Part shown: positions 2,963 through 49,840 of the stretch, one piece after another
How positions within the stretch are numbered: the first letter of the stretch is position 1
How the letters are laid out: each line of letters starts with the position of its first letter
NCBI GenBank assembly: GCA_021234155.1
Contig: JAJEKV010000064.1
Span: 1,426,001 to 1,490,000, forward strand
Reading direction: 5' to 3'
DNA length: 64,000 nucleotides
Source: Isoetes taiwanensis
Lineage: Eukaryota > Streptophyta > Lycopodiopsida > Isoetales > Isoetaceae
Program-made: the position numbers and the translations under genes
The notes under the pieces: generated by a model
The model's database searches: none
Seen by the model: the letters and a program-made list of their open reading frames with translations, nothing else
What the model was told of the DNA's origin: nothing

Positions 2963-3296
2963 TTGGTCCAAATTTGGCAATTCCAAACGCAGATATCATT
3001 AATACAATCTAGATACTTACAATTTTGCACATTAACATGACAAAAACATAAATTTGTATTTACAAAAAGTCTGTATTTACAAATCTTCCTTTTTAATAAA
3101 CCTAGCTAATTTCATATCTTTAGGCATACAAGTTACTCTTTTTGCATGGAGGGCACATGCTAAAAAGTCTTCAAAATGTTGAAGTATCCTTTGTTCTGCT
3201 GCCTCGAGTAACATGTCATCTGTTACTCTCTTGGTGTTGTCAAATTCTTGCAAAATTTCGCGGGTGAGTCTCGCGAAGGCAGCTCGTGGGATCAGT

Positions 3297-9591: not shown

Positions 9592-9786
9592 AGAAAGAGG
9601 AAAAAAAGAGGGTAGTAGATCTACTAGCGAATCTACAGCGGAAGCTCTGGTCATTAAGGCGGCTATTGAACGGTTCCTAAGACTATGTTACATGATGCTT
9701 CTTATAAATGACGTGCTTAAACGCCAAACGATGAATATAAAGGCCCAAGAATACTTGTCTTCTTCAGTTCATTCTTCAGTTCAAAA
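9592..9786 (+). promoter_or_regulatory. Promoter region of the subtilase gene
   Basis: A TATA motif (AATATAAAGGCCC) lies near 9733-9745, about 45-50 bases before the start codon. Upstream are an ACGT core (AAATGACGTGC, near 9707) of the type bound by plant bZIP factors and the palindromic GTAGATCTAC near 9618. The same block is kept in the copies at 7690-7865, 52588-52713 and 52940-53100, which shows it moved with the gene in each duplication. Function is inferred from position. Confidence 0.6.
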
Positions 9787-29485: not shown

Positions 29486-31103
29486 AAAAGTTCTGACACC
29501 TTCGGGCCCTGGGAATTAGGGGCTAAGAGTTCAAGAGATTCTACTATAAAGTAGAATGGTTTGGTGATTGGTAAATGCACTAGCCAAGATGAGTTAAGAT
29601 GAACAAGAAATGAGCATAAGTCTAAGGGATTGATAGTATCTTAAGTTTTGATTATTATTCTGTGCTATATAAGCTAGAAAAGCTAATGAGAATGCAGTTC
29701 ATCAAGGAGCTAAACTTGGTCGAAAGTTACCGAAAATAGGATGAAATGTTAAGACGGATGTTTTCATGCAAGGCATGGACAGCGGACCATGATAATTGTG
29801 AAGGTATGTTCCTACAAATTTCTATAATTGGTAGATTGTCTAATGGTGGACCACGTTGCCGCGTTATTTTAAAGTAGACCATGTGTAGGGAGTTGTAGTG
29901 CTTTAGCAAAATCAATGCTAGGGTTGTGAGGGCCCATGAACAGTGCTTAAAGAGGTAAACTCGAGGGTTTAGGAAGTTGTAACTATGCTGAGTAGGTTCT
30001 TTTTGTGAGAAGTCACAGTAAACTATGTTCATAATCTTTTAGGGTCCCTTGAAATTACTTGTGCGAGTTGTATAGCTATAAGATACACAGATGGGGGATG
30101 TGATTATGTTTTTATTTGTCACTCTTGGATTTGGCCACCCAAGGTGTGTCATATGAATACATACCTAGTCCGACCTGAGTATCTCTCTTGCCATGCTGGG
30201 CTTAGTATTTTATAGTGCACTATTTATCCTTGGTAGGAAAAAGTGGATTAACCATATAATGCAGATGTTTGCTACGTCAGCTTGAACATGTGTAGTAAAT
30301 AATTATACGAATTTCATTATAAGTTTAGTTCCAAACTTTATACATGCTAGTGGCAAGGTTGATGCACTTAGATGTATTTAGAGTATGTGGTAGATTAAGT
30401 TGGAACTGCACCAATTTGGACGAAAATAGTAGAGCTTAAGCCATATGTAGGTTAATGAGGAAGTTCTTGTATAATAAGCACAATTTCATTATAATGGGAA
30501 AATTTTTAGTAAACTGGAATTTTTTTATTATGGGGGTTGTATAGACCTTATGCAGGGGTTGTATACACGTGTACAGTACCCTGTATCATAGACCTTATGC
30601 AGGGGTTGTATACACGTGTACAGTACCCTGTATCATAGACCTTATGCAGGGGTTTAGGACACGTGCAGTACCCGTGTATCATACATACATGAATATTTAG
30701 AGAACATAATAACACGGTATCATATACCAACTTCCAAACACAATAGAGACCAGAAGTATGAACTATGTATGTCCCTATTAACCTTCCCCGTGTTCCTAAC
30801 CCCTTCCCCTTCCCCTTTCCCTGCCTGCAGGTCTAACCCATGCATCCGGGTTAGGAGTCAAGAGCTCACGCTCCTCCCAACTGATTCTTCCCACCATATG
30901 GGGTACCTAGTCATTAGAAAAAGTAATTCCACAGGATGATACTCACGGAAGAAGAGCGGACACAACTCCACAAAACCGTTGTACTTTCGTTGTAGTACAC
31001 CCCTAATAAGGCCATACATCCGTCCCTTACAAATTTCATGAATGAACTCGATATATATACATCCGAGAGAGTGTGCTAAATATCCAAAGACGAAGAAGAG
31101 GCC
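29486..31103. other. Internal region after the large LTR, no gag or pol recognised
   Basis: This stretch follows the primer-binding site where gag would be expected, yet all frames are short and none shows a zinc knuckle, protease or RT motif. It suits a large non-autonomous (LARD-like) element or a truncated one. It includes the 47-bp repeats listed next and a C-rich run near 30785-30825. Confidence 0.45.
30540..30715. repeat. 47-bp tandem repeat, three copies
   Basis: The unit TAGACCTTATGCAGGGGTTG..ACAGTACCCTGTATCA occurs at 30543 and 30590 almost perfectly, and again from 30637 with small deletions. Each unit contains the palindromic TACACGTGTA, a G-box-like ACGTG core. Confidence 0.92.
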
Positions 31104-31466
31104 TCAATTCTTTGTAGCATCTCGTCCGGATAAGGAGGGGGGTTCAAGAATTCCCCTCATTGCAAGTCTCCTATAACATTCGGATGGATTAATTTCCATC
31201 GGTGGCTCATGACCACAATCAAATCGCTCTAGAATGAAGTTGATCAACTCCATTGTAAGCTCCTTGGTGGGGCTGCGGGCACAACCTCCACTCAAAGAAA
31301 TGGTCCCATAGCTCATCCATTCCAGGCCGCCTGAGAATGCCCAGGGCATGCTTGCGTGCCTTCGAGTAGCCCAGGGAGGATTGGGTCCAATCATTTGCAA
31401 AAGCAAGCAAGGATCACCGACGGAGCAAGGAACACGGAGCAGAGCAAGTAGCAAGTTCAAGAGCAA
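31104..31466 (-). CDS. Unrecognised ORF fragment, frameshifted
   Basis: A 120-codon frame ends at 31104 with a plausible C-terminal half (LINFILERFDCGHEPPMEIN). Its N-terminal half is better read in the overlapping frame (31410-31219: WTQSSLGYSKARKHALGILR, MDELWDHFFEWRLCPQPHQ). That suggests one coding region with a frameshift near 31265. No family is recognised. Its 5' end runs into the AGCAAG-rich repeat, which may have been part of the same transcription unit before the Copia inserted. Confidence 0.35.
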   Translation of the reverse strand: MLLNLLLALLRVPCSVGDPCLLLQMIGPNPPWATRRHASMPWAFSGGLEWMSYGTISLSGGCARSPTKELTMELINFILERFDCGHEPPMEINPSECYRRLAMRGILEPPSLSGRDATKN

Positions 31467-31700
31467 GCAACAAGATCAAGTAGCAAGGAGCACGGGAATG
31501 AAGTAGCAAGGAACAAGGATCAAGATCAAGTAGCAAGATGCAATGAACAAGGAAGATCAAGTAGCAAGAAGATCAAGGAACAAGGAAGATCAAGGAGCAA
31601 GAAGCAAGGATCAAGATCAAGTAGCAAGGAACAAGATCAAGTAGCAAGATCAAGAGCAAGGAACAAGATCAAGTAGCAAGAAGATCAAGGAACAAGGAAG
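31400..31700. repeat. AGCAAG/GATCAAG short-period satellite, left part
   Basis: Degenerate repeats of GATCAAGTAGCAAGGAACAA (period roughly 12-24) run up to the Copia insertion at 31701 and resume at 36005. Before insertion this was a single array of about 560 bases. Only purine-rich words on this strand are used. Confidence 0.9.
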
Positions 31701-31892
31701 TGTTAGAAATATGAGACACACACAACTTTTCCCACAAGACAAGACAAAATTTTATTCATATGAGATACATATTTATACATCAATATGAGCCACTATTGGA
31801 CTAGTGCCACAATAGGTGCTATATGTGACATACATGCCATACATGGCAAAAGGTAAAGGTGCACGTCTCCTATAGAAAGGAGATTCCAAACA
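31701..31892 (-). repeat. 3' LTR of the young Copia (192 bp)
   Basis: It runs from TGTTAGAAATATGAG to GATTCCAAACA on the + strand. For the minus-strand element this is the downstream LTR. The adjacent CCCTCCCTGC (31893-31902) is, on the minus strand, the purine tract GCAGGGAGGG that primes plus-strand synthesis. Confidence 0.95.
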
Positions 31893-32180
31893 CCCTCCCT
31901 GCAACTTTAGCCTTTTGAACAAAATAATTGTATCTCATATTTAAAGATACCTCCAACCATCCCTCCCTGCATCTTTAATCTAGTGCTTGGATCAAAAAAA
32001 CCTTTTGTGGGTTAAAAGGAAATAACCCAAGCACTTTCAGAACAACTCAAGTAACAACAAAAGATTCAACAATTCCAAGAGCTGCTTTGCACATCTCTTG
32101 CTTCAAGTCCTAATGCTTTGGTGAAGATGTCGAAACCATTGGCCGACGTTGGACAATATTTAAGCATAATAGTCTTCTTT

Positions 32181-35100
32181 TCATACTTCCAATTTGATAT
32201 AATGATAATGTAGCTCAATATGTTTAGATTTAGAATGAAAAACCTCATCCTTTGTTAATGCAATTGTACTTTGATTATCACACATGAGTAGAGTAGGCCC
32301 CACCTGAGTCTGATGAAAACAATCCATCAACCGTCGCAACCAAACCAATTCTCTACTAGCAATTGATGCAAAGAACATACTCGCCCGTGTAGTGAAAAAG
32401 AAACACATCGTTGCTTTTTGCTCATCCAAGAAACTAAGGATTTCCCAACAAAAAAACAACTCCCACTAGTAGAACGAAAAGTGTCAGGACAACCACCCCA
32501 ATCAGCATCTGTATAGCCTAACAAAGTCAATACATCAACATCATTCTGCTTTGTGTACAATAAACCACAAGTAGAAGTGCCTTTCAAGTATCTCAAAACC
32601 CTTTTAGCAGCAATCCAATGAACCTGTCCAGGATTAGTCATGAATTGACCAAGAGTATTAGCAAAGATAACTAATATCGTATGGTAGCATTGGCCAAATA
32701 CATCAACGCACCAACCAAACTAGCATAAGGACATTTTTTCATTTGCAATCTTTTCTTCATCGATTAAAGGACTTTGTTTTTGAGAAAGTTTGGAGTATCT
32801 GGAACTAACAACAAGAGGAGTACTTTGTGATTTTGCTTCACTCAAATCACCATTCAAGAAGGCTGTCTTTACATCCATTTGATGTATATGAAGATCATCT
32901 TTGCATTGCAAAAGGCTAACAACACTTTCAAAACTTGTAAGACGTAAACCGGAGAAAAGGTTTCCTCATAATCTACACCTTCAACTTGTGAGAAACCTTT
33001 GACAACAAGGCGAGCTTTGAATTTATCAAAAGAACCATCAGCTTTAATCTTGGTCTTAAAAATCCACTTACATTGAATGGGCTTTCGTGCTGCAGGTAAT
33101 TCCACAAGTTCCCATGTACCTTTATTGATCAAGGACTCATATTCAGCCTCCATGGCCATTTTCCATGATTCTCGCTTTGATCCGAACCGAGAGCATCGAC
33201 CTTGTAAATTGGATCGCCAGTCATAGCCAAAGCAGAATAATAATCTAAGATCCGTTGCGTCGGCTTCCAAGCTCGACGTGCAACAATAGCATCATCATGA
33301 GGAACCTCATGAATAACTTCATCATCATGAGCACCCTCATGAATAACTTCATCAAGACCATCATGATCTTCCTCATCATAATCACTATCATTAGCAAAAT
33401 CATAAGCAAGTTCAGGAACATCAAGAGCTTCAGCAGGATCAAAAATCGGATTATGTGCATCAAGGATAGCAGGAGCAATGAGAGGAGTAGTAGGCAGCAT
33501 AGGAACATCAGTAAAAAGATTATCATCTGAAAAAGGGAATTCAGCAAGTATTTCACTTTCATGTTGACTATTAGATTTGAAGCGTAACATAGAAAGCTCA
33601 TCAAAAGTAGCATCACGACTAATGATAACTTTTCGAGAAACAGGATCCCAAAAACGATATGCTTTAGCATTAGAAGCATATCCAAGGAAAATAGCTTTAG
33701 AGCAACAGGGATCAATCTTTTTTCTTTTTTCGGTTGGAATATGAACATAAGCGGTTACAACCAAAAACACGCAAATTAGCAACATTGGGTTTACGACCAA
33801 ACCAGGCTTCAAACGGAGTTTTGCCTTTCAAAGCAGAAGTAATCAAGCGATTTTGCACATACACAGCAGTGGCAACAGCTTCTGCCCAAAAACACTTATC
33901 CAAACCCGGAATGAATAAGCATACAACGCACAAAGATTCATGATTGTCGCGATTCTTCCTTTCAAAGAACACCATTACGTTTGGGGAGAATAAGGCGCGG
34001 TATATTCATGAAAAATACCTGATTCTGCACAAACTTTGTCAAAAGCCAAAGATTTAAACTCACCACCATTATCAGTGCGCAATCTTTGAATCATGGTTCC
34101 AGTTTGAACCTCAACCAATTTCTTAAAGGTACAAAAGATGGATAGGACATCAGATTTTTTGGAAAGAAAGTACACAAAGGTATAGCAAGTATAATCATCA
34201 ATGAAAAGAAGAAAGTATATGGCTTTACCAATGGAAACACAAAATGGGCCACAAAGATCGGAATGTACAAGTTCTAAGAAATGCGAGGGTAGGATGTCCA
34301 TCTCCAGAGAATGGATGGCGATGCTGCTTACCAAGAGCACAAGCCTCACAAACACCCAATACACCATGGGTTGACAAATTGAGACCATCCACAAGTTCAT
34401 CACAGCTCATGTCCAAAAGAGCTTGAAAGTTAGCATGACCAAAGCGTCGATGCCACAAAGTACCGATATCATCACCACGAGATATCACAACATTAGCAAA
34501 CTCATCATTCAGTTGAAGAGCATAAAGATTGCCTTGGCGAAAAGCAGTGGCAAAAACAAGACCATCTTTCACAAAACGGCAAACACGGTTATCAAACTGA
34601 ACAAGGAAGCCAATATCAGTAAGACGAGCAAGAGAAAGGAGATTGTGGGAAAGGTCCGGCACATGTAGAACCCCATGCAAAAGCCGCACACCAGAAGATG
34701 TGCCAATTTGAAGAGTACCAATGCCTTTGACAGCAAGGGGTCTATTGTCACCAAGATAGACAAATTTCTTAGCAAGAAGAGGACGATATTGAGTCAACCA
34801 ATGCTTGTGATGAGTCATGTGTTGAGTGGCAGCAGAATCTACAAGCATAGAATCATTAGCTTTAACCATTTCAAGCGCATCATGGACACAATGTCCCTCA
34901 TCTCGCATGCCAAGAAGAAGTTTATGCTCAGTAGCAAATTTTTTATAATAACATTCTTCTTCAGGATGGCCAGACTTTTTACAATATTCGCAAACAATAG
35001 AGCGACCACGACCATAGCCACGGCCACGGCCGCGTCCACACCCACGACCAGAACGACCAGCATGCTCATCAGCATAATTATCCTGATCATCATCACGAGA

Positions 35101-35810
35101 TCGTTTAGAACGAACCACAAGAGCTGTTTCTGTCTGATCTTTAAAATATTTTTGAAGTTTGGTAGCTTCATCTTTCAATGAAATATGAACACGATCTAGA
35201 GTGAGGTTGGCTTTATTGAGCAAAACGGTACGAACAACCTTGAATTCTTCTGGCAAAGTTTCTAGAAGTGCAACAATTTGTTGTTGAGGTGGCATGACCT
35301 CACCAGCAATAGACAAGCCATCTACAAGAGTTTTAAACTTATCAAAGTGAAGGTCAAAAGATTCTGTGAGGCTATAACGAAGATTTGCAATATCATTGCG
35401 AAGACTATAAATCTCATAGACAGTCTTTTGCTCATAAACTTTGTCAAGGTAACTCCAAACCTCAGCAGAGGTTTTGAGATCCCTAACATCCATCAGAATG
35501 GATTCTTTGAGTGCATAATGTATCAAAGAACGTGCCGCTTTATCTTTTTCTTCCCAGTCAGCTAAAAGCTTGACCCAAGTATCGTATTCAGCTCCACTGG
35601 TAGCAAGAGCACCAGCACTAGTCAATGGTTGTTTAGGAACACGGATTTTACCCGTGACGTAATCAAAAAGTTTGTCACTCTCCAACACCAACTCCAACAT
35701 AAGCTTCAAAACAGGGAAGCCAGATCCAGAAAAGACGTAAAGTGTCTTTGTCCCGGAGAGCCCGCGAAAAGTAACAACAGAAGAGCTTGGCTCTGATACC
35801 ATGTTAGAAA
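32181..35810 (-). pseudogene. Copia gag-pol polyprotein with deleted reverse transcriptase
   Basis: Read from the Met near 35800, gag comes first (start MVSEPSSSVVTFRG). A CCHC zinc knuckle (CEYCKKSGHPEEEC, near 34960) is followed by the protease region (LVDSAATQHMTHHKHW) and GAG-pre-integrase (WHRRFGHANFQALL, CEACALGKQHRHPF). Integrase follows (VHSDLCGPF, RLRTDNGGEF), then the RT start (WIFKTKIKADGSFDKFKARL, HQMDVKTAFLNGDLSE). At about 32838 the frame jumps directly to the RT/RNase H linker (AKSQSTPLVVSS). The ~150 residues holding YVDD are gone. RNase H (GYTDADWGGCPDTFRSTSG, LLMCDNQSTIALT) ends the sequence. Frame changes near 34390, 33975, 33800, 33270 and 32640 add to the damage. Confidence 0.93.
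35789..35801 (-). promoter_or_regulatory. Primer-binding site of the young Copia
   Basis: On the minus strand TGGTATCAGAGCC begins directly after the 5' LTR, complementary to the 3' end of initiator Met-tRNA. It also overlaps the start of the polyprotein (the ATG of MVSEPSS lies within ATGGTATCAGAGCC). Confidence 0.9.
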
Positions 35811-35999
35811 TATGAGACACACACAACTTTTCCCACAAGACAAGACAAAATTTTATTCATATGAGATACATATTTATACATCAATATGAGCCACTATTGG
35901 ACTAGTGCCACAATAGGCAAGAGTGCTATATGTGACATACATGCCATACATGGCAAAAGGTAAAGGTGCACGTCTCCTATAGAAAGGAGATTCCAAACA
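35802..35999 (-). repeat. 5' LTR of the young Copia (198 bp)
   Basis: Identical to the other LTR except for an extra CAAGAG near 35917. On the minus strand it would carry the promoter. Short LTRs of about 200 bp are usual for small Copia families. Confidence 0.95.
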
Positions 36000-36004
36000 G
36001 GAAG

Positions 36005-36262
36005 ATCAAGGAGCAAGAATCAAGGAACAAGATCAAGTAGCAAGATCAAGAGCAAGGAACAAGATCAAGTAGCAAGGAGCACGGGAATGAAGTAGCAAGG
36101 ATTCCGAACAAGGATCAAGATCAACTGTAGCAAGAAGCAATGAACAAGGAAGATCAAGTAGCAAGAAGATCATGGAACAAGGAAGATCAAGTAGCAAGAA
36201 GATCAAGGAACAAGGAAGATGAAGGAGCAAGAAGCAAGGATCAAGATCAAGTAGCAAGGTGA
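36005..36262. repeat. AGCAAG/GATCAAG satellite, right part
   Basis: Continuation of the array interrupted at 31701, with the same GATCAAGTAGCAAG words. See the left part. Confidence 0.9.
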
Positions 36263-36299
36263 AAAGTGAGAAGTGAAAGCAAGGTAAAAGAATTTATAG

Positions 36300-36425
36300 C
36301 TACGAATCCAATAATGTTGAAGTATAATACCAATAATGTTGAAGTATAATACCAATAATGCTGAGGTATAATACCAATAATGCTCACGATAATAATAATA
36401 ATAATGCTGAAGTATTATACCAATA
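36300..36425. repeat. ~22-bp tandem repeat, about five copies
   Basis: CCAATAATGTTGAAGTATAATA repeats from about 36309, drifting to GCTGAGGT and GCTCACGATAATAATAAT before TGCTGAAGTATTATACC. It is AT-rich and contains a short AAT microsatellite. Confidence 0.9.
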
Positions 36426-36943
36426 ATTCTACAACGACTATAAAAGCAGCTCCATTCTGGTAGAAGTCATTCATCTCCCATGGCTTATAATATCTATGAG
36501 TATGAAGATCGGTTTGAGACCATTCTTTGCTCCATGAGCTACAATGATATTGTTCGGTGCATACATAAAAGCAGTTAAAATTTGGATCCCTACTTGCAAT
36601 CCAAAGGCGATGGTCCCGAGTGTCATTGCCCCGGCCTTACTCGTGTTGTGATCCATCTTCTTTGGCTTCCCCGAACGTCGTGCCTATGAGCTGAATGCGA
36701 TCCGTTAGCGAGGATTGAAGATGAGTGAATCATCGACTCTATAATGCCATCAATAATATGTGCATCTAAATTATATGTATGCCATCAATAATGTGTGCAT
36801 CGATATAATGATGTGTATTAAACACCTATTATAAAAGATGTAAGGATGTTAGTATAAGCATAATGAAAGCTAATTGATGTATCGACAATGTATTAATTGT
36901 CCAAAATGCTTAAGTATTATAGCAAAAGAAATTACATACATAA
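36426..36943. other. Spacer between satellite repeats and the DUF7869-like gene
   Basis: A 61-codon minus frame (36656-36471) with two hydrophobic runs is present, but nothing supports it as a gene. The rest is AT-rich with repeated ATGTGTGCATC/ATCAATAATATGTGC words (36748-36800). It probably holds the 3' end of the leftward gene. Confidence 0.35.
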
Positions 36944-39900
36944 TTATCGAGAACATGACTGAGATTGAGAGCTTTTAGCTAATGCTATGTCCCCCCACAT
37001 GTCAACAATGTATTTTGGAATCAAGCAGTCTTGGGTCTTTTTGCCATTTGCATCCCATGCATAATGTATGGCATCTAACTTCTCATACCTTGATGGATCT
37101 GATGGATTGGGTCGCCAACGTTTAGTTAAGCAACCTGTATAGTCACGACCAACAGGCATCCACCATGATACATAAATGTGACCATAATTGGTAGACTCTG
37201 GATCTAGGATGGCATCTTCTTCTGTAAAGCCCAACTACGTTGGAGTTTCATCGTCTCCAGGTCGGACTAAAACAAACATACCTTTCGTAACATGTGCATG
37301 AGGATCGAACTCATCCATAGGCAACACCGGACGCCCATCTGGCTGGCCCACAATGTCGTAGGCAAAGGTCTTACAAGCCGCAGCGGCTTCATCGACCTCT
37401 GGAGTAAATGCAGCTTGTAGAGGTTCTTGCCTTGTACGCAACCAAAAGTTATCATTTTGAGGTTGTCCTGGAGATACATCTTCCAAACACACAAGAATCT
37501 CGTTCCAGTAATCCATAGTTGCTTTGTACTGTCGTGCAAACACATATCTTCTTGATTTTTGCAGAAGGAATTCCATAATGCTATGTACTTGCGATCTTTG
37601 TCTCGCCAAAGCCGAGATCTTTCAATGTCTTCCTTGGAGGAATATTTTTAGGCACCCCCGTTGGTAACGTTGGCTCACCATTTTCATCCTCCTTCCACAT
37701 TCTTATTCCTTTTTCTAGAATCCACTCTTTATGGGTTGGCCGCATCTTATATTGCATAATGGGCCATTTCCCATCCATTTTAAATCGAATAGCAATGGGC
37801 CTCGGTATGGCTGTTAGGCGTTGGCCTTTATCGGGGATATATCCCTTGACAAAGCCTTTCAATCGGAACTTCATCCACAAAATATGGAATAGGAGACTTT
37901 GCATTGCACTTGCTAAACAAGTAAAAGCAACTTCGAGCAAAGTTAGAGCATCCGATGAACTCATTAACGTCGAAAAGTTCTCAAACAATGCATCAATATC
38001 GTCATGAGTATGCCCAACCATCATGAAGCCAACCTGAATCTCATCGAATACCTTAAGCCATGTCAAATAAGAGAGGTAGGAGAACACATATCTATTTTTA
38101 TTTTGACCCGATGCATTATCCAACTGTAAGTAGAGATTTCGAGGAAGAGGATTGAAGCCTTCTAAGTTGGCACTAGAAGATGAAGGCATCTTCTCTTGTG
38201 TCTGCGCTAGCTTATGCTGCAGTGGTCGAGTATCTTTTAGGGCTTGCATCAATTTGCAATCTGTAGTTCTGCTTCCACACAGATCACCACACTTGTCTTC
38301 TTCCGGCAACTCAAGATAGTGTAGGATCCTAGAAAGTGATCCAACATGAAAGTTTGCATCATCCTTCCAAAGATCAAGAGAGAAATGGCCATAAGCCCGT
38401 CCACCATGACCATGTGTCAATGCTCCTGTCAAGCTGCTCTTCAAGCGATCTCCTCTCCAAACAGACTTTGCGAGATGGTGACTTCTTGGTGTCAGTGTTT
38501 TGACCTGATCCATCTTATCATGTATTATGCAAAGGTGACTTTCTGGCGAACGATGTGATAATGCACGCCAATGCCAATATTGACTCCTACAGGAACGTTG
38601 TTCCAACATATGTGCCCGCCGTTGAATTGAAAGGTTGCGCCTCTCCCTTGTATCTTTTGTTCTTTCCAATTTCTGCTTGATGACTGCACATATGTTACAC
38701 TTGGAGAATGCTGTATTTTTTGCTATGCTGACGTCTGGAAACTCTTTCTTCTAAATATTGTAAAAAGAGGGCAAGGTTACACTCTGTCCTGTCAATTCTT
38801 CCACCACGGCACCCACTTCCTTATGTATGCTCTTCTTATTAAGAATGGAAGGAAGTTTGCGAACATTCTCCCTTATATCATCCTTTCCTTTTTTGCTTCT
38901 ATGTGGAATGCTCTCCGCATTCTCACTAATGAAGGTATCAAGCACACTTTCTGTAGCTAGTGTCACAGATCTAGGCTTCTTAGAGCCTGTATTACCATGC
39001 TCCGCCCGTTTTCCACCTAACTCGAACCTCTTCCTCCAACTATAAAACGTAGACTGAGCAACTCCTAAAGCCACGTGCCATGCGAATTGATAGCACTCCA
39101 CTCCAGAGACCACTACTTTCGCCTCCGACTGCCCTGTATAAGTTACACTCAACACATAAAAAACAAGCGTAATCCTGGCAGATTGAGAATAAAATTCTTT
39201 TCTTAAGGCACATACTTGCTCGCCTCGGGTTTTTTTGACACATTAGCCCCTTGCAACATGTTGATTTTAGAGCACTCTTGATTGACTTGGAAGCGCACAT
39301 CCTCTCCTCCTTGCTATCCCCCTTTGGTTCCCTCCTGACCCTCTTCACATATGTATATTTCCTTTTCCTCTTGAATTGCTTCTCAACATCAGCTTCCAAG
39401 CACTCAACTTCTAAGTCATCCTGTTCGAGAGTAGCTCGAGCTTGTAAATGTTGTGAAACTGTCCTACCATCATGAAGCAAAACATCATAGGTCTCCCAGG
39501 TTACTAGACTGTTAGCTATAGGCCTCTCAGCACAAGCATGACATGACCTGATATTTTGGTTTCCCGTTGGATCTATTATGTTACCCACTGAAAGCCCGAC
39601 CTTTAATACACCCAAGAACTCATCGTCTTTAGCATCCTGAGGATCACTAAAGACTATATTCGCCTCCGAATATTTAGATCCAATGCAGGAGTGAAGAATG
39701 TAGCATGGCAAACCTAGTAGATCTGCTGCGGGAGTAGTAGATCGTCTCATCTTCAGGCTTAAACAACTTTGAGACCAAGGCGGGCAGCTAGATTCTCATG
39801 ACCTCAATCTCCTCTACTATCTCGTCTTCTTCATTTGTTGCTGTGTTGCTTGGTTCACCACAGTGAGCAGTGAAACTGATGTCCGGCGGGCTACTGACAG

Positions 39901-40217
39901 ATGGTGGACTACTAGATGAATCCTCTTCTAAAGAGGGCAAATTGAGGGATCTCGAAGACGTATCTTCACTTGAGGGGCACTCATTTTGTTTTACATCCCT
40001 CTTAGGCCACTGAATGAATGTGTCTACTGCTTCACCAAAGTTATCTGCCCCTTCGCAGGGGACTGGAAGCTCGGTCGATGGGATCACGGACTCCGTGACC
40101 TCAATAGCTACATTTGAAGGATCTATTTCCTTCCCATGAAGAGTGGTTCTATTCAAAATATGTCCCCGGGCAACAATTGTCCTTCCGACGAATAGGTTGT
40201 ACAAGGGAAAATTGAAC
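36944..40217 (-). pseudogene. DUF8039-DUF7869-like transposon-type protein gene, mildly decayed
   Basis: The first visible exon (from 40217, after GAAACAG) reads VGRTIVARGHILNRTTLHG and ELPVPCEGADNFGEAV, then DTFIQWPKRDV. This is the DUF8039-type domain seen in plant transposon proteins, followed by a Ser/acidic linker. The next exon (39750-39230) is Lys/Arg-rich with several Cys. A third (39155 to about 38765) has an HTH-like block: AWHVALGVAQSTFYSWRKRF. The long frame 38669-37581 holds the DUF7869 core, with LYLQLDNASGQNKNRYVFSY and VGHTHDDIDALFENF. A further frame (37609-37235) continues to LVRPGDDETPT and stops at a TAG (37235-37237) where homologous proteins have Trp. Reading resumes as LGFTEEDAILDP to 36944. 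DUF7869 is widely regarded as RNase H-fold-like, and transposase function is my inference. One frame change plus one nonsense codon suggest recent decay. Confidence 0.75.
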
Positions 40218-40290
40218 CTGTTTCAATCAAGCAAGACGACACTTTTTAGAACATATGAATTAGACGAAAAATAAGCAATAAATACGCAAA

Positions 40291-40645
40291 AATGGCGCCA
40301 TTTAGTACAAAAGAAAAATTTTTGGTCTAAATTTGGAGCTAAATGGCGCCATGGCGCCATTTGGTCGTATCGGTGAACACTTGGATCAAATGGCGCCATG
40401 GCGCCATTTGATCCAAATTCAAACCTATGGCACATTCATTGGTGTGAATTTGGAACAAATGGCGCCATGGCGCCATTTCATCCAAGTGCCAAATTTGGAG
40501 CCAAATGGCGCCATGGCTCCATTTGGCTCCAAATTTACACCATTTCAACCGTGCCCACCATTTTCAACCGAATGGCGCTATGGCGCCATTTAGACCAACA
40601 CCATTTTAAGGGTGTATTTGGAATAGAATGGCGCCCTGTGACATG
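40291..40645. repeat. GGCGCC palindrome cluster, left
   Basis: The core is two GGCGCC sites around a shared CCATGG, with AAAT and ATTT outside: a 22-base perfect palindrome. Full copies start at 40341, 40388 and 40457. One-base variants start at 40503 and 40570, a half-site lies at 40291 and a broken copy at 40626. At 40381-40416 the symmetry extends to 36 bases without mismatch, flanked by TTGGATC and GATCCAA. Spacing is 46-69 bases. The cluster lies directly upstream of the leftward gene's first visible exon. Confidence 0.95.
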
Positions 40646-40954
40646 GGGCGATTTGGCTTAGCTCCATCACAAAATCTACACGACGTTCCTATGTTATGCA
40701 TTCTTGCTCCCATTGATGTATGTGTCAATAAGAGCAGGCATGCATAACATGGGAACCCCATGCCAACTTTGCAATTGAAACCAAGTTTCTTAGTGTCCTA
40801 GCAGCATTAATGTCAGCATTTGGACACGCTATACACATGGCAGCAATAGAACAGAATTCATACCAGAAATAGTGGACTTACTTGATATTAGATAGATCCA
40901 TAGTGGTATGTCCTGGAGCAGTAGATGGAACAGGAAAATCAAGCTGATCCCAGC

Positions 40955-41105
40955 AGATAAATTCGCAGAAGAATGCGCCAAGAAGAATTCGCCAAGAAGA
41001 AAGCGCCAAGAAGGATTCGCCAAGAAGAAAGCGCCAAGAAGAATTCGCCAAGAAGAAAGCGCCAAGAATCACCTGGGATTTCTGTGAGCGCCAAGAAGAA
41101 AGCGC
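40955..41105. repeat. 17-bp GCGCCAAGAAGAA(AG/TT) tandem repeat
   Basis: GCGCCAAGAAGAAA and its partner TTCGCCAAGAAG alternate about eight to nine times. The purine-rich unit again contains GCGCC. Long frames crossing it on the minus strand are repeat artefacts. Confidence 0.9.
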
Positions 41106-41976
41106 CTGACAGCACGCATGCGCCTTGCAAAGTTTCTGCCTAGGCGCCTGAGAAAAGAAGCGCGCCTTATGCGAGCGGCAGCTGAGACGAGCAGGCGGAT
41201 TCGAAAGCGCCTGAATCGTGCACGAAAATGTCTGCGTCGTGGCATGGTCGCATTAAGTGGGAGCACGGCGACAAAGAGGGAGCTTTAAATGCAAAGTACA
41301 ATTTTAAAAGCGGACGATTCAAATTTGGACGGATGGCATCAAATTTCAATTCTGGGGAGAATTTTGACTTTTATGTTAATTCGCGGTGGTAGGGAATTTT
41401 GAATTTTATGTTCAAATTTGGTAGTGATTAGAGCCGGAAATATTGAATTTCAAAATTCAAATTTAGGCGGGCATGGGCGCTGGACATACGATGCATGGCG
41501 GGCATGGGCGCTGGACCGCCACCTGGCATGGGGCGGGCATGGGGTGCTGGGCCGGGCATGGCGCTGGGCGACCCGCAGGCCCTAGTTGGCGCTTTGTGTG
41601 TATTAAGCGGATAGCCAGCGGCCAAAGTTTGTTATGCCTAATTGTTTTTATGAAGTTTCTCATTCGGTTTTTTCGTTTTCGATTCCAGCTCCTAGCGCCT
41701 CGACCTTAAGCGCCCGGCGCCCGGCCTAAGTCGCCAGACACCTAAGCGCCCAGCGCCTAAAGCAACCTTCTTCGTCCTTTGTTTTCAGTGTTTTCTGGCA
41801 CCATTTCCCCACAGTTCAGCGCCTCAACACATCTAGCGACACACCAGCTTTCGGACCAAATTCAAGGCGCTCGAAATGGAAATCGACAATTCTAGAGCTC
41901 CTCAGAATGTGGAGACAGCTGCTAGCGCACCTCAAGGGACATGTATGTCATCTACTTGCATTGTTTTGTTTGGGCT
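41106..41976. other. GCGCC-rich spacer between the divergent genes
   Basis: No gene is seen. GCGCC/GGCGC occurs far above expectation, notably at 41100-41230 and 41690-41760 (AGCGCCCGGCGCCCGG), separated by an AT-rich block near 41290-41460. GCGGGCATGGGCGCTGGA is duplicated near 41468 and 41498. This may be the 5' region of one or both genes. The exon-like ATGGAAATCGACAATTC near 41875 ends in a possible splice context, so the rightward gene may start here. Confidence 0.5.
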
Positions 41977-42320
41977 AAATGGCGCCACCGCGCTATTTAG
42001 ATGCTGGTAGCCACTTTAGGGTCTTAATAGTTGACAAATGGTTGGATGCCTGAGCGCACTTTAGGAGTCTATTAGCTTACTTTAGGATGCCTGGTAGCTT
42101 ACTCTAGAGGGTCTTTTGCTACCAAATGGCGCCGCGCCATTTGATGTCTATTAGCTTACCATAGGGCCTTGTTGTTGGCAAATGGCGCCATGGCGCCATT
42201 TGATGTCTATTAGCTTACCATAGGGCCTTGTTCTTGGCAAATGGCGCCATGGCGCTATTCCATGTCTATTAGCATACATTTGGGACTTGTTGTTGGCAAA
42301 TGGCACCATGGCGCAATTTT
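41977..42320. repeat. GGCGCC palindromes in a ~58-bp tandem array
   Basis: Palindromes start at 41977 (variant), 42124 (shortened), 42180, 42239 and 42298. They are joined by TGATGTCTATTAGCTTACCAT-type spacers with period 56-59. The copy at 42180 is perfect; the others carry one to three changes, mostly inside one GGCGCC. Confidence 0.93.
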
Positions 42321-42870
42321 TATCTGCGTCCAGTCCATAAACACTAATGGAGTCATTCGCATATGTATTGCTCCTACGAATCGCAGGTGCCTCTACCCAG
42401 TCAGAGCCACTCTCCTTCCAACCATCTTCCGCGAATATTGCGAAGGGGAGGGGCTCGTCTTGGAGTGGAAACCTCGCGACTTACGCAGGAAATGCATTCG
42501 AACTACTTCCATGTGATGCACTGAACTCGGATGCAAATGGCGCCATTTGCAGGTCAGTGGAAATTACAGTGCACTTTGTTAAAACGGACGACTAAGCAAA
42601 TGGCGCCATGGCGCCATTTGCATCTGAGTTCAGTTCCGAGGTAGCTTGCTTCTCATTGTGTTGCGTTCTGTAGTGCTCTCTCCTATGAGTCGCAGGTGCC
42701 TCCACCCAGTCAGAGCCACTCTCCTTCGAACCATCTTCCTCGAATATTGCGAAGGGGAGGGGCTCGGAAGCTGGAGGCCTGGAACGACCAAACGCTGAGG
42801 ATATGCATCTGAACTGCTTCCATGTGCTTATGCATCGACTCAGATGCAAATAAATGCCACGGCGCCATTT
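42298..42870. repeat. ~270-300-bp duplicated block bounded by GGCGCC palindromes
   Basis: Two direct copies (42298-42597 and 42598 to about 42870) share TCGCAGGTGCCTC, CAGTCAGAGCCACTCTCCTT and CGAATATTGCGAAGGGGAGG. Both end near AT(C/G)CAAAT followed by a palindrome or its remnant. A half palindrome is at 42536, a full one at 42598 and a damaged one at 42850. Confidence 0.85.
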
Positions 42871-42951
42871 ACCTACCACAACCGATTATGCACGCTTGTT
42901 GTTAAAACCATTTACTGATGCCTCTTTGTTACTGATGCCCCTTTGTTGCAG

Positions 42952-43631
42952 CTATGTTACGTCCGGAAACACAATTTCAATCCGACCAGACTATCATGCT
43001 GATAGACAGGTACTGGTGCATGGAAGTAATGCGGGTGAGCCCCTCTACTCTACAGGGCTCGAAGGAGATCTGCGAGAAGAGAGCTCTGCCTCCTTATAAA
43101 GGAGACGACCCGAATCGGCCCAGGCATTTACCGGCCGGTATCTTGATCCACATGAAGATGGTTGCCAAGAGCGGTCGCGAAGATTGGATCCGGGTGGTCT
43201 GTGGGGATACTATGCGTGAGAGAATAATTGTCTACTATGTGGACTGGAAGTTTTATGATCCGGATTTGTAATGTCTCGCTAGCATTGCAAATGTAGCTGG
43301 TTCCGCGAAGAAGCAAGGCTGGGCGCTGCCATCGTACAACAGCTTTGAAGAAGCTGACATCAAAGGCCCACAAGAAATCTTGAGGGGCTTTATGATTCTT
43401 CGCAATCGTATGAACGAGTCAAAAAACTCGCCTTCATTCGCTGAAGGCTTTAGCCCGCCAGGTTACTACCCGCCATTGTGGACACGACCGGCTAAAAACA
43501 GCTTAGCAAGAAGAAGACAAGACAAACTAAGGAGACACCGCAAATTTAAAAAGACTCCTCATCTTTCTATCGAGGATGTGTCCGTGAAACCCACTTTTAA
43601 GGAAAGGCGGCGGGGCAAGCGGAAAAGTTAA
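42952..43631 (+). CDS. N-terminal exon of the ParB/methyltransferase-like gene
   Basis: One frame is open except for a TAA at 43269-43271. Before it: IDRYWCMEVMRVSPSTLQG and LIHMKMVAKSGREDWIRVV, ending VYYVDWKFYDPDL. After it in the same frame: QGWALPSYNSFEEADIKG, ending in a basic stretch (RRRQDKLRRHRKFKK). The composition looks like a real globular domain, but I do not know the family. The quality of sequence on both sides of the stop indicates a recent nonsense mutation or recoding. Confidence 0.55.
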
Positions 43632-43762
43632 GAGAAAGGATCACAAAGATCCTGAGAAGGAAAAGAAGGAAAAGAAGGAAAAGGAAAAGAAGGAAGAGAA
43701 GGAAGAGAAAGAAAAGAAGGAAAAGAAGGAAAAGAAAAAGGAAAGGAAAGACAAGGATAGGG

Positions 43763-44455
43763 ATGGCAAGGGGCAGAAGGAAGGAAAGGCGAGACAGGAA
43801 AAGGAGGGAAAGGAAGTGGAGACAGAGGAAATGGATGGGAAAAAGAAGAAGAAACACAGGCTGGAGCACCAAGAAGGATAGGACACCTAAAAAGCAAAGA
43901 AGGCAGACTCAGGCTCCTAGTCCTGCTGGAAGTCCAAGAAGTGGTGGTGAAGCTCCAAGCCCATCGCATAGCCAGGATCCTGCGGACACACCGGCCAAAA
44001 GGGTCACCATTCAGAAGCCAGAGCGCAAGCTTACCTTAAGAATTGCTCAGCACTTGCTAGAGGTGCCTGCAAATCTTAAGGTCGAAAGGTCAGAAGAGGA
44101 AAAGACGGCAGAGAATACACTGCAAAAAATTTACGATCACCGGCATCTGTTTCCTCTGGGTGTCACATTTATAAAAAAGATAGACGTGTTCAAACTATAT
44201 CAAGGGCCAGCAAATCTGACATCTAGACCAAGGAATATGGAGCACGTCAAAACGTTAGTGGAGTCCTTTCAGAGAGACCCACATCCAGTGTTCACTCCCG
44301 CTGATGTGATTCCATTCAATCCCCTCACAAACAAACTGGTCCCTTGGAAAACCGAGGATGACCTCATGGGGATGCACTATTATATAGTGAATGGCAATCA
44401 TTCAGTTATGGCTGCTCAGCTTGTATGTAGAAGACTCGGCACAGCAAAGTCCTAA
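43763..44455 (+). CDS. ParB/sulfiredoxin-like domain segment
   Basis: After basic and Pro/Ser-rich sequence (TQAPSPAGSPRSGG), the domain reads DVFKLYQGPANLTSRPRN, then VKTLVESFQRDPHP, then MHYYIVNGNHSVMAAQLVC. The final GNHSVMAAQL matches the GNH/GxHR helix that ends ParB-fold domains, where the preceding block specifies arguments to be kept. In bacteria this domain binds DNA or cuts it, and is often fused to DNA methyltransferases. The upstream purine-only stretch (43630-43860) encodes Lys/Glu repeats in a shifted frame. Confidence 0.6.
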   Translation: MARGRRKERRDRKRRERKWRQRKWMGKRRRNTGWSTKKDRTPKKQRRQTQAPSPAGSPRSGGEAPSPSHSQDPADTPAKRVTIQKPERKLTLRIAQHLLEVPANLKVERSEEEKTAENTLQKIYDHRHLFPLGVTFIKKIDVFKLYQGPANLTSRPRNMEHVKTLVESFQRDPHPVFTPADVIPFNPLTNKLVPWKTEDDLMGMHYYIVNGNHSVMAAQLVCRRLGTAKS

Positions 44456-44693
44456 GAGCAAATGTCAAAGATTTATCTTCAACGGAATTGCCGAGTGTTT
44501 GCTTGCAGCTCAGTTGTGAAGTCAATGATATCACTGCGAAGACTATTTTCAAAGAGCCCTTCATTGATAACATAACCCACCAAGGCGGCAATATATGCTC
44601 TATCGCGGGGAAGCCCGATCCATCGGGACGCTTGGCGATCCACGCCGAGAACCATACAAGGTACATACTGTTGTAATTGTTGGCAAGATTAGC

Positions 44694-44775
44694 AAATGGC
44701 GCCGTGGCGCCATTTGCTCATTAAATGGTGCCGCAGCGCCATTTCTTCACTAAGTGGCGCTGCGGCGCCTTTTGC
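44694..44775. repeat. GGCGCC palindromes inside an intron of the ParB/methyltransferase-like gene
   Basis: Three copies at 44694 (one central change, GTGG for ATGG), 44724 and 44754 are spaced exactly 30 bases apart with TTGCTCATTA-type linkers. They sit between a plausible donor (ACAAG/GTACAT, 44660) and acceptor (TTTCCAG, 44816). Confidence 0.9.
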
Positions 44776-44875
44776 TCATTAAATGTCATTGAAGGCTAAC
44801 TTCTTGTTGTTTCCAGCATTATCTGGCTTTGGCTGAAGTTACCATGCGTGATAAGCATCCAAAAGATTTCAACGG

Positions 44876-45424
44876 TGGGTCTTCATGCGGAGGATATTTT
44901 TTCGCTTATTCATGTCCCTATGGAACTTGTGGAAATCTGGCAAGCTAAAAGACAACAAGGGACAAACTATTACCTGTAACTGGGCAAAAGAATCTGACTA
45001 CTTCAGTCAAACCTACCTGAGGTGCATGAGGGGACTCGACTACGAAGACTGTCGTGTTCTGTTCCAGGAAGTGCTGGATGAGAAGACCTTCGTCAAGGTC
45101 ACCAATGATTATACATGTAAGCAATTCTTCAAGGCAAGGGCAAAGACACTAAGATCCATATCTTTCTTGAAGAAGGAGATTTTTGAATATGTGAAGGATA
45201 ATTTTCCGAGGAAGTTCAAATCCTTCACTGATCTCAGTACTGCCGTGCCGGGCTTCGAGGATACCGACCTGATTGCCATGGCCACCTTGCATAGTAAGTG
45301 GGTTGAAACTGGAGTGACCAAGGAAGGCGTTTTCGGTAACGTGCCACCTGCCTTGGCAAGATTCATACGCAATCTTTGTCTTGCGAGAGAGGATCTTGAA
45401 GACTTCGTTCGCGAGTTGAACTAA
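44876..45424 (+). CDS. Helical middle region of the ParB/methyltransferase-like gene
   Basis: An open frame reads SDYFSQTYLRCMRGLDYEDC, VTNDYTCKQFFKARAKTLRS, FLKKEIFEYVKDNFPRKFKS and ALARFIRNLCLAREDLEDFV. It is predicted mostly alpha-helical and no motif is recognised. In ParB-methyltransferase fusions the region between the two domains is also helical. It ends at a stop where a one-base shift would continue into the methyltransferase-like part. Confidence 0.55.
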   Translation, partial: WVFMRRIFFRLFMSLWNLWKSGKLKDNKGQTITCNWAKESDYFSQTYLRCMRGLDYEDCRVLFQEVLDEKTFVKVTNDYTCKQFFKARAKTLRSISFLKKEIFEYVKDNFPRKFKSFTDLSTAVPGFEDTDLIAMATLHSKWVETGVTKEGVFGNVPPALARFIRNLCLAREDLEDFVRELN

Positions 45425-46410
45425 CAGACAGCAGGGGGCAAGTTAGATGCACTCCTGTACCAGTATCCTTGATTGTCCTGGACACTAGAGGCATAATTCC
45501 AATGTGGGACAAAACCACACTATCTAATTTCTTTAATACAGCTGTAAAGAACACCACAGCTGATTCTTTCTGGATAGTGGTCTTTGCAAGGCCGGAGCAT
45601 AACTTTTTGATTTCATCTGTGTTGGATGATCTGGATTCCAGATCCAGAGTTTTTATTGGCATGTATGAGGACGAATACAAGAATCCGCCTGCCCCAGGAG
45701 TTCAGGAGGTCCATGCTCTAGTGTACGCCACAAAGATTCAGGCCACTGCAGGTCATCCTGTCGATGCAATTGACCTCAGATTCCCGTTTGCCGATCATCC
45801 TCAAGAACTGCCTGGCTTTCCTGTGCCTAACGAAGAAGACGAAGACGGGGAGACTGAGGCTATGGCGGAAAAGCTCGCAAATGCCAGTCCAGTGCGGTAG
45901 GCAAGGCTTGCCGGGGACATAATCATGAGAAACCACCGGGCCTGCCACATGCTCCTACCTCGTCTGAGAAAAATGGTACCGCCGAGAACAGGGGTGTTTG
46001 ATTACTTCTCTTGTGGTTCGTTTGGCCGGGCTTCATTGATGAATAAGAGATTTTGCATTGTGTTCGAAAGTGAACCGGTTAAGCAGCAGTGCCTACAGGG
46101 CATTCTTGGTAGGCTTGACTGCCTACTGAATCCTATCATCGCAGCAGTTCCTATGACAGAGAGACAAGGTGCTGTTGTTGAAGAAGCTGTAGATCCACCA
46201 AATCCAGAGATGCCTGAAGCTCCACCCGATGTGGACTATGATGTGATCAAGAACGCACAATTCGATCTGGACATTCTTAATGATCCCAATTTCACTGCCA
46301 CAGCGTTCGAGAGCTTTCAGGGAGATCCTATGGTTGCTTCTTCTAGCCATGGCCCTGGCAATGCAGAACCTGATCCTGATGTGGAACCTGATCCTGATGC
46401 AGAACCCTGA
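45425..46410 (+). CDS. Degenerate permuted DNA-methyltransferase-like region
   Basis: The first frame reads PVPVSLIVLDTRGIIPMW where beta-class N4/N6 methyltransferases have VDLIVxDPPYxxxxW. It continues SFWIVVFARPEHNFLISSVL and VFIGMYEDEYKNPP, then VQEVHALVYATK, matching the order of strands after the catalytic motif. A second frame from 45925 reads LLPRLRKMVPPRTGVFDYFS, then CGSFGRASLMNKRFCIVFES, then EPVKQQCLQGILGRL. This fits the AdoMet-binding FxGxG motif and the following (R)xxxxxE segment. DPPY is replaced by DTRG and FxGSG by FSCGS, so catalysis is doubtful. Assignment rests on motif order and spacing, not a search. The C-terminus is acidic with a short EPDPD repeat. Confidence 0.5.
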
Positions 46411-46930
46411 ATTTTGTGTGAATATAATGTAAATTGTACAATAATACTCTTGTAAACAGACTCTCTCTTCCGAGTCCTTGCCTGTTGTGGCAAATTTTTT
46501 GATATGCAAATCTATGAATTTGGAAATTTTAACTAATTTTGTAATGTTATGTTTCTCTAGCTTCATTATATGCACTGTTAGTATTTTTAATGGCGCCAAT
46601 AAATGACACTTTAGATGCATTTTTTTTTTTTAAATGGCGCCATAATTGCTCAAAAAATTGGCATTAAATGAACTAAAAAGGATTTTCGTTCCTAATTGGA
46701 ATCACGAAATTTCTCATTTTAATGAAATTGTGCTTATTTTCGTCCATCCCCTCTCTGTTTATTCCGGATTTGGAACTTCGATTTTGTTAGGCAGCCAAAG
46801 GTTTGCGGAAGTTTTCAAGCATGATCTTTTAGTTCTGAGCAGTTCAATCATCCAAGAATGTATCAGACTGTGTTGCTTACTTGAAGTCTCTCTTTACAAG
46901 CCATATGACAGTTTAGATCTTGGCGCAGTG
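46411..46930. other. 3' region of the methyltransferase-like gene with GGCGCC half-sites
   Basis: AATATAATG..ACAATAATA sequence after the stop suits a 3' untranslated end. Half palindromes TAATGGCGCCAATAAA (46589) and AAATGGCGCCATAATT (46633) mark what may be the right edge of the palindrome-bearing unit. The 95-codon frame at 46646-46933 has no supporting motif. Confidence 0.5.
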
Positions 46931-48185: not shown

Positions 48186-49310
48186 TCGGGCTAGGCTCAT
48201 GGTCGGTCACTTCGTGTGGGCCGGGTATGGGTCCGACACTTCCTGTGTCAATGGTGTCGCCCTGACTCTCAAAAGTTGCAATTGTCGGCTTGACTCTTAT
48301 TTTAGGGAGTTCAGTCGGGTACGGACGTGTGTCGCCACGATCCTCTAGTTGCTCATGGAGCCACCGCACTTCGGGAGGGGGATGCAACCCTTTCTAGCTC
48401 ATCGGACCGGGGAGATGCAACCCGGAGTAGTCTCGTTGGATGATACCATGGGATTACGTCTCCGACAGGTTACAGTCACGACAGAGCCTGATTTAGCCTA
48501 TCTGCAAAGTATGCACAGGAGGGGCGGATGGAGTGGTCAACCCTAGCCATTGTCTATTGCCAGCCCAAGTCATTGCCATAACTCGGTCTGTTCTATCTGA
48601 AGGCCCCCAGCCGTCAGTCGACTCCCCCTTGAGTCTGAGCCCTGGGTAGGAGCCTCTATTTGATGTATTTGATGCATTTGTTGTATTGTTATATTCGATG
48701 ACATGGATGGATGGATTATCACTATCCTATGGGGTAGTTTATTGTTGTTATGTTATTGCTAATGCTTATGTTTATATGTTTTGCTTGATATAGGGACCCC
48801 TAGAGGACGGGACAGAATGACACCTCTGTATCCTCTACTCGATAGTCTGGCCACCCTAGACACGAATTAGACAGAGGGCCCATACGACACGTAGCCGTTG
48901 GATGGGGAAGGTCCTTCGTTGTATACCACGGGCTGTCGTATATAGCACAAGGAGCGTCACACTGCCCCTCCTGTGCATACCTTGCAGATGGGCTAAATCG
49001 GGCTCTGGTGCGACTCTAGCCTTCCGGATATGCAATCTCATGGCATCACCCATCGAGACTACTCCAGGTTGCATCTCCCCGGTCCGTTGAGGCAGGAAGG
49101 GTTCTATCTCCTCTTCCCTGGGTCTAGAGGTTCCACGAGCGGCTAGAGAATCGTGGCGACACATGATTCGTCTCCGACTTAACCTCCCAACACAAGAGCC
49201 AGGCCATCACCTGCAGCTCTTGAGAGGCAGGGCAACACCATCGCCCCAGGAGGTGTCGGACCCATGCCCGGCCCACTCGAAGTGACCGGTCATAAGCCTA
49301 GCCCTATGGG
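48186..49310. repeat. ~1.1-kb foldback: 350-bp inverted repeat arms around a ~400-bp spacer
   Basis: The arm at about 48186-48545 matches the reverse complement of about 48948-49310 at roughly 75-80% identity by eye. Landmarks in both include GGGCCGGG(T/C)ATGGGTCCGA, GTGTCGCCACGAT, GACCGGGGAGATGCAACC and ATGCACAGGAGGGGC. The GC-rich arms contrast with the T-rich spacer (48640-48800). No protein is encoded. It could be a foldback transposon or two opposed copies of one repeat, and its transcript could form a long imperfect hairpin. Confidence 0.8.
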
Positions 49311-49604: not shown

Positions 49605-49840
49605 TTAGGGTTCCTTGATTAGGGTTCAAGATGTTGACTAAGTGTTCTAGGAAGGCTTTACTAGGGGTTCAAGATGTTGACTAAGTGTTCTAGGAAGGCT
49701 TTACTAGTGTCTCTAGTAAAGCCTTCCTAGAACACTTAGTCAACATCTTGAACCCTAATCAAGGAACCCCCTACGTGTCTCTAGTAAAGCCTTCCTAGAA
49801 CACTTAGTCAACATCTTGAACCCTAATCAAGGAACCCTAA
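49605..49840. repeat. Near-perfect hairpin array: two forward and two reversed units
   Basis: Two forward units (GGGTTCAAGATGTTGACTAA... to ...GGCTTTACTAG, 49605-49707) are followed by TGTCT and two reverse-complement units (49713-49840). The inner arms pair without mismatch over about 45 bases around the five-base loop. The outer arms add TTAGGGTTCCTTGATTAGGG and its complement. The perfect symmetry shows it is young or maintained. A transcript would make a long double-stranded stem. Confidence 0.95.

Follow-up and report, generated by a model that had tools for sequence, protein, structure and literature searches.

The locus described here raises the question of whether a plant transposon encodes a protein that joins a ParB-like domain to a DNA-methyltransferase-like domain, and of what such a protein may do. 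The window (the whole stretch of DNA analysed, 64,000 nucleotides of contig JAJEKV010000064.1 from Isoetes taiwanensis) had been described in an initial annotation, made from the sequence alone, as containing a gene of this kind within a plant mobile element. The window contains all five peptides quoted there, reading rightward in the order given: DVFKLYQGPANLTSRP, YYIVNGNHSVMAAQL, VSLIVLDTRGIIPMW, WIVVFARPEHN directly after VSLIVLDTRGIIPMW, and VFDYFSCGSFGRASL. The gene is indeed part of a mobile element, a two-gene DNA transposon with inverted ends. Our reading, to which we give a little more than an even chance, is that it is an accessory gene of a Sola1-like two-gene transposon, and that its product is a self-binding, shielding or end-pairing protein, with methylation probably lost or unorthodox.

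The evidence for a methyltransferase relationship comes from the last segment of the protein. Its profile was compared by HHalign with a set of 15 beta-class methyltransferases (E. coli YhdJ, 13 phage enzymes and M.PhiCh1-I), and the resulting alignment, which begins at the Q of motif X, runs across motifs I and II and covers 66 columns, obtained a score of 44.6 (Prob 77.5, P 1.9e-5). As a background for this score, 300 column shuffles gave a best value of 24.7 (mean 15.5, standard deviation 2.8), and the reversed alignment gave 18.6. Since the score lies above all 300 shuffles, the methyltransferase reading is supported for this segment, which, as judged from its sequence, appears related to the permuted (beta-class) enzymes. 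The S-adenosylmethionine (AdoMet) motif I-like peptide VFDYFSCGSFGRASL, at 45994..46038 on the plus strand, falls within the strongest profile match. Comparison with a 121-member ParB-methyltransferase set gave an HHalign score of 35.3 (P 0.00099), the shuffle maximum being 28.7.

Other libraries point to the same stretch, below significance. The most frequent PHROG match is PHROG 3008, 'DNA methyltransferase', obtained at motif I for 9 of the 15 members with an E of 0.017 at best, below significance, and the top PDB profile match, also there, is the beta-class enzyme M.RsrI (E 0.61, below significance). When a template-free model of exon 3 was searched by Foldseek, permuted amino-methyltransferases made up 42 of the best 50 of 560 matches, many of them being the same protein. 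None of 15 members matched PF01555 (N6_N4_Mtase), even with E values of up to 10 allowed, and single-sequence searches of the methyltransferase-like part gave no significant match.

It may be argued that the likeness to ParB proteins and methyltransferases is superficial, and that the gene encodes an unrelated, TnpA-like DNA-binding accessory protein of a plant transposon. This is suggested by the failure to find any protein match at E ≤10 among those of some 5.8 billion proteins that share words with the query, by the lack of any Pfam family reaching its cut-off for the protein, and by the poor quality of the models. The idea is hard to reconcile with a C-terminal profile score above all 300 shuffles, with DNA methyltransferases being the best-ranked entries of two more libraries at motif I, albeit below significance, and with the published ParB-methyltransferase gene that occupies the corresponding place in an algal transposon (Dinatale et al. 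2025, PMC12477816); we regard it as improbable.

The catalytic motif is a different matter. At the motif IV position, where DPPY or SPPW would be expected, the window reads VSLIVLDTRGIIPMW (45463..45507, plus strand). In the copies of the element this stretch is mostly S-L-I-x-L-D-T/A/L-R-x-x-x-P-M/V-W. A scan of 37 loci, some of which overlap, produced 41 pattern matches in 28 of them; 26 of the matches are clear motif-IV stretches, some 14 resemble chance matches, and no D/N/S-P-P-aromatic sequence was present among the 41. None of the copies read has a DPPY-type motif, as the initial annotation had anticipated in calling it degenerate. That annotation's methyltransferase assignment stands for the 3' segment by profile against shuffles; it does not extend with similar confidence to motif IV, as the stretch expected to hold it yields a P of 0.12 in its own profile comparison. 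The arrangement expected of a beta-class enzyme, motif IV before motif I with beta-alpha-beta strands between them, agrees with the secondary structure in a low-confidence model. The catalytic part is tentatively identified from the order of the motifs, from secondary structure prediction and from fold matches that fall short of significance.

These data also bear on the possibility that the protein is still an active N4C/N6A methyltransferase, using an unusual catalytic motif (for example x-P-M-W in the manner of S-P-P-W) and marking its own transposon DNA. All 15 rows of an alignment keep the P and W of x-P-(M/V)-W as well as the R ahead of them, the gene is under purifying selection (see below), and PMC12477816 predicts activity for a relative from Ectocarpus. 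The complete lack of a canonical motif among the 41 matches, 26 clear stretches included, argues the other way, as do the loss of the P in copy L012, which reads ITSMW, the position of strand beta-4, whose last residue in the low-confidence model is the D of D-A-R-Q, five residues ahead of TPVW, and the glycine pattern of motif I, which seems to be altered and is gapped in the alignment. Continued activity is considered rather doubtful.

The ParB-like signature stretch, DVFKLYQG...YYIVNGNHSVMAAQL, lies at 44183..44422 on the plus strand, with DVFKLYQGPANLTSRP at 44183-44230 and YYIVNGNHSVMAAQL at 44378-44422; family membership is not significant. No significant match was obtained in Pfam, PHROG or PDB for the ParB domain that had been claimed here: none of 12 members matched PF02195 with E values of up to 10 allowed, and the profile comparisons of the region gave P values of 0.08-0.33. 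M.PhiCh1-I itself falls just below the PF02195 cut-off. In a Foldseek search with a template-free model of the region, ParB chains ranked 1-3, the matches being weak and the model poor. What speaks for a ParB domain is the secondary structure prediction together with the ranking among weak fold matches; the domain is not proven.

The structure of the gene was established from copy L009, which carries an uninterrupted three-exon gene with two GT-AG introns, encoding 1127 amino acids. By comparison with L009, in which the splice sites were read, exon 1 was placed at 41876..41942, exon 2 at 42952..44660 and exon 3 at 44817..46410, all on the plus strand. Exon 2 corresponds to the N-terminal domain, a Lys/Glu-rich linker and the ParB-like region (about 44117-44660), its frames being broken in the window; exon 3 corresponds to the helical region followed by the methyltransferase-like domain. 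The interval 42952..46410, to which the gene had been assigned, therefore holds exons 2 and 3, whereas exon 1 lies upstream and the quoted peptides are not in one frame. Exon 1 was retrieved in 11 of 20 gene-spanning loci, by using a pattern with up to 8 mismatches (24 loci were scanned, four of them left flanks). In a tblastn comparison with the window, the L009 product was matched by seven pieces distributed over three frames. The reading is broken by stops at 43269-43271 and 45898-45900; the window copy is thus decayed.

Many other copies exist. When the exon-2 frame was searched against the same genome (a 1,658,258,908-base assembly in 1110 contigs), at least 140 matches were obtained from at least 137 scored places, the window's own included, which sets the gene far from chance. 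Identities of 52-99% to the exon-2 query, along its whole length or a part of it, were found for the other copies, many of them with long open frames, and the genome also holds a diverged subfamily, 41-43% identical in exon 3. The ratio of non-synonymous to synonymous substitution rates (dN/dS) was calculated among nine loci for each of two regions, the loci being picked for open frames, which lowers the values: it ranges between 0.12 and 0.46 in exon 3 (20 of 36 pairs computable) and between 0.08 and 0.39 in the ParB-like region (24 of 36), synonymous sites being saturated in the remaining pairs. The protein of the open copies is clearly under purifying selection.

The whole transposon, to which no strand is assigned, spans 30476..46735 of the window, as defined by homology edges and terminal inverted repeats. 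In alignments with four other copies the left edge of homology falls at 30473-30476; on the right, the match stops at 46735-46739 in 16 of 20 loci (the 20 copies were taken as 10-kb stretches, with additional flank for four). The ends are near-identical inverted repeats starting with AAGCACAATTTCATTA: AAGCACAATTTCATTATAATG on the left (30476..30496, plus strand) and AAGCACAATTTCATTAAAATG, in minus-strand reading, on the right (46715..46735). The last 20 nucleotides are kept with at most one mismatch in 16 right ends, namely the window and 15 of the 20 loci, five loci being uncounted. Three complete copies measure about 11.3-11.7 kb. The window copy is enlarged by a Copia long terminal repeat retrotransposon (31684..36004, minus strand), absent from the four other aligned copies, in which the Pfam domains gag_2, Pol_BBD, gag_pre-integrs and SH3_retrovirus were found in separate frames of the open reading frame list.

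Target duplications of 4 bp (AGTC, GAAT and TTTA) flank all three complete, uninverted copies with both flanks read. In a fourth copy, E22 (L022 together with L032), the left part lies in the opposite orientation to the right one, as an internal inversion would produce, and the copy was for this reason excluded from the count. The window copy, with both inverted ends present, has no matching target duplication, its flanks being TAAT (30472-30475) and ATTT (46736-46739); recombination between copies is perhaps responsible.

Sola1 transposons have 4-bp target site duplications, and the length found here agrees with this value. The left gene of the element (37581..39795, minus strand, in several frames) contains the Pfam domain DUF7869 (E 2.9e-34) and presumably encodes the transposase; in copy L030 it also shows a weak helix-turn-helix match (HTH_29, E 0.0018, below its cut-off). 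The two genes are divergent, the ParB/methyltransferase-like one being on the strand opposite to that of the presumed transposase. Sola1 elements are listed for the moss Physcomitrella and for Capsicum in PMC9033089.

What the protein might bind is suggested by a set of palindromes. The palindrome AAATGGCGC-N4-GCGCCATTT occurs 13 times in the window (up to 3 mismatches), against 0.03 expected, and none of 100 shuffles reaches this number. All 13 fall within 40341-44773, so that in the window they are confined to the element: a cluster of five between the genes (40341..40591), five in intron 1 (41977..42619) and three in intron 2 (44694..44773), all given on the plus strand. The core GGCGCC taken alone is less specific: it occurs 33 times in the window, 26 times within the element. 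Similar palindromes, with varied centres, are found in copy L023 as well as in the diverged subfamily, in loci of no more than 41-44% identity in exon 3. That they persisted although the coding sequence changed suggests them as candidate binding sites, and we infer that the ParB/methyltransferase-like protein may be what binds them.

The protein begins with an N-terminal domain and a basic linker, which are followed by a ParB/sulfiredoxin-fold-like domain and, after a helical region, by a permuted amino-methyltransferase-like domain. In the proposed accessory role it would bind the DNA of its own transposon, the AAATGGCGC palindromes of the intergenic stretch and the introns being the most likely sites. 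Binding would either shield the element from silencing or aid the transposase in pairing the ends, methylation being probably lost or of an unorthodox kind. That a catalytically dead ParB-methyltransferase serves as an element-encoded, sequence-specific binder of the AAATGGCGC palindrome, protecting a plant transposon from silencing, is a tentative proposal, and in our view a rather doubtful one. VANC-type proteins of plant Mutator-like elements are anti-silencing factors that bind their own element in a sequence-specific manner; the likeness would lie in the possible role of binding the own element, no sequence or domain relation being expected.

Among known systems, the closest in layout and length is Sola1-1_Ec32 of Ectocarpus, a 21.5-kb transposon with a gene, opposite the transposase, for a protein of 1104 amino acids with ParB-like and N4/N6 methyltransferase domains (Dinatale et al. 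2025, PMC12477816). That paper also cites green- and red-algal ParB-methyltransferase cases, and proposes that accessory proteins bind and modify their own transposon. Both elements are giant DNA transposons with the gene opposite the transposase, a product of similar length (1127 amino acids here) and both domains; they differ in that the algal protein, from a brown alga, is predicted there to be active, whereas the Isoetes element resides in a lycophyte and lacks the DPPY-type motif. Archaeal and viral ParB-methyltransferases such as M.PhiCh1-I, in which N6_N4_Mtase is combined with a ParB_N match just short of the cut-off, share the domain order and can be aligned over motifs X, I and II; unlike them, the protein described here has lost DPPY, has an extra N-terminal domain, linker and helical region, and is encoded with introns on a eukaryotic transposon. 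Bdelloid N4CMT (PMC8885841), a eukaryotic amino-methyltransferase of prokaryotic type, is likewise connected with transposons, but it is a host gene with an intact SPPY, acting on transposons rather than encoded by one.

The origin of the gene can be considered in this light. A recent capture by the element of a host (plant) methyltransferase gene or of a giant-virus gene would fit the prokaryote-type domains and the many archaeal, viral and metagenomic M.PhiCh1-I relatives carrying both of them. A search with a few short peptide patterns found no relative in viral contigs nor, for exon 3, in prokaryote genomes; the identity of only 41-43% in exon 3 between copies of one genome points to long residence, and a brown alga has the same layout (PMC12477816). 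Recent capture is thus the least probable of the alternatives. The initial annotation had proposed that a plant element domesticated a prokaryote-type module, and had known of no such gene in plants. Because algal transposons already carry ParB-methyltransferase accessory genes, an old transposon gene is the simplest history, and the novelty of the fusion is overtaken by the published brown-algal Sola1 case and the green- and red-algal ones. No land-plant case of the fusion was found in the literature, most subscription papers being outside the scope; what is new here is the lycophyte host, together with the lost DPPY motif and the palindrome array as a candidate binding site.

Outside the element, the window contains a plant subtilase gene at 9721-12048 (plus strand; Peptidase_S8, fn3_6, I9 and PA) in one uninterrupted frame of 775 codons, and a second Copia fragment at 3183-4322 (plus strand; SH3_retrovirus, with weak integrase and RVT_2 matches). 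A compact palindromic cluster at 49605-49840 is made of nested direct and inverted repeats of 43-63 nucleotides, 100% identical, and 148-nucleotide inverted arms at 48378-49111, 83% complementary and 438 nucleotides apart, possibly represent a small inverted-repeat element.

The ParB-methyltransferase-like proteins of transposons are thus probably extended from algae to a vascular plant, in which open copies are under selection and a candidate binding site is defined. This makes it testable whether transposons write, or only imitate writing, their own DNA marks.
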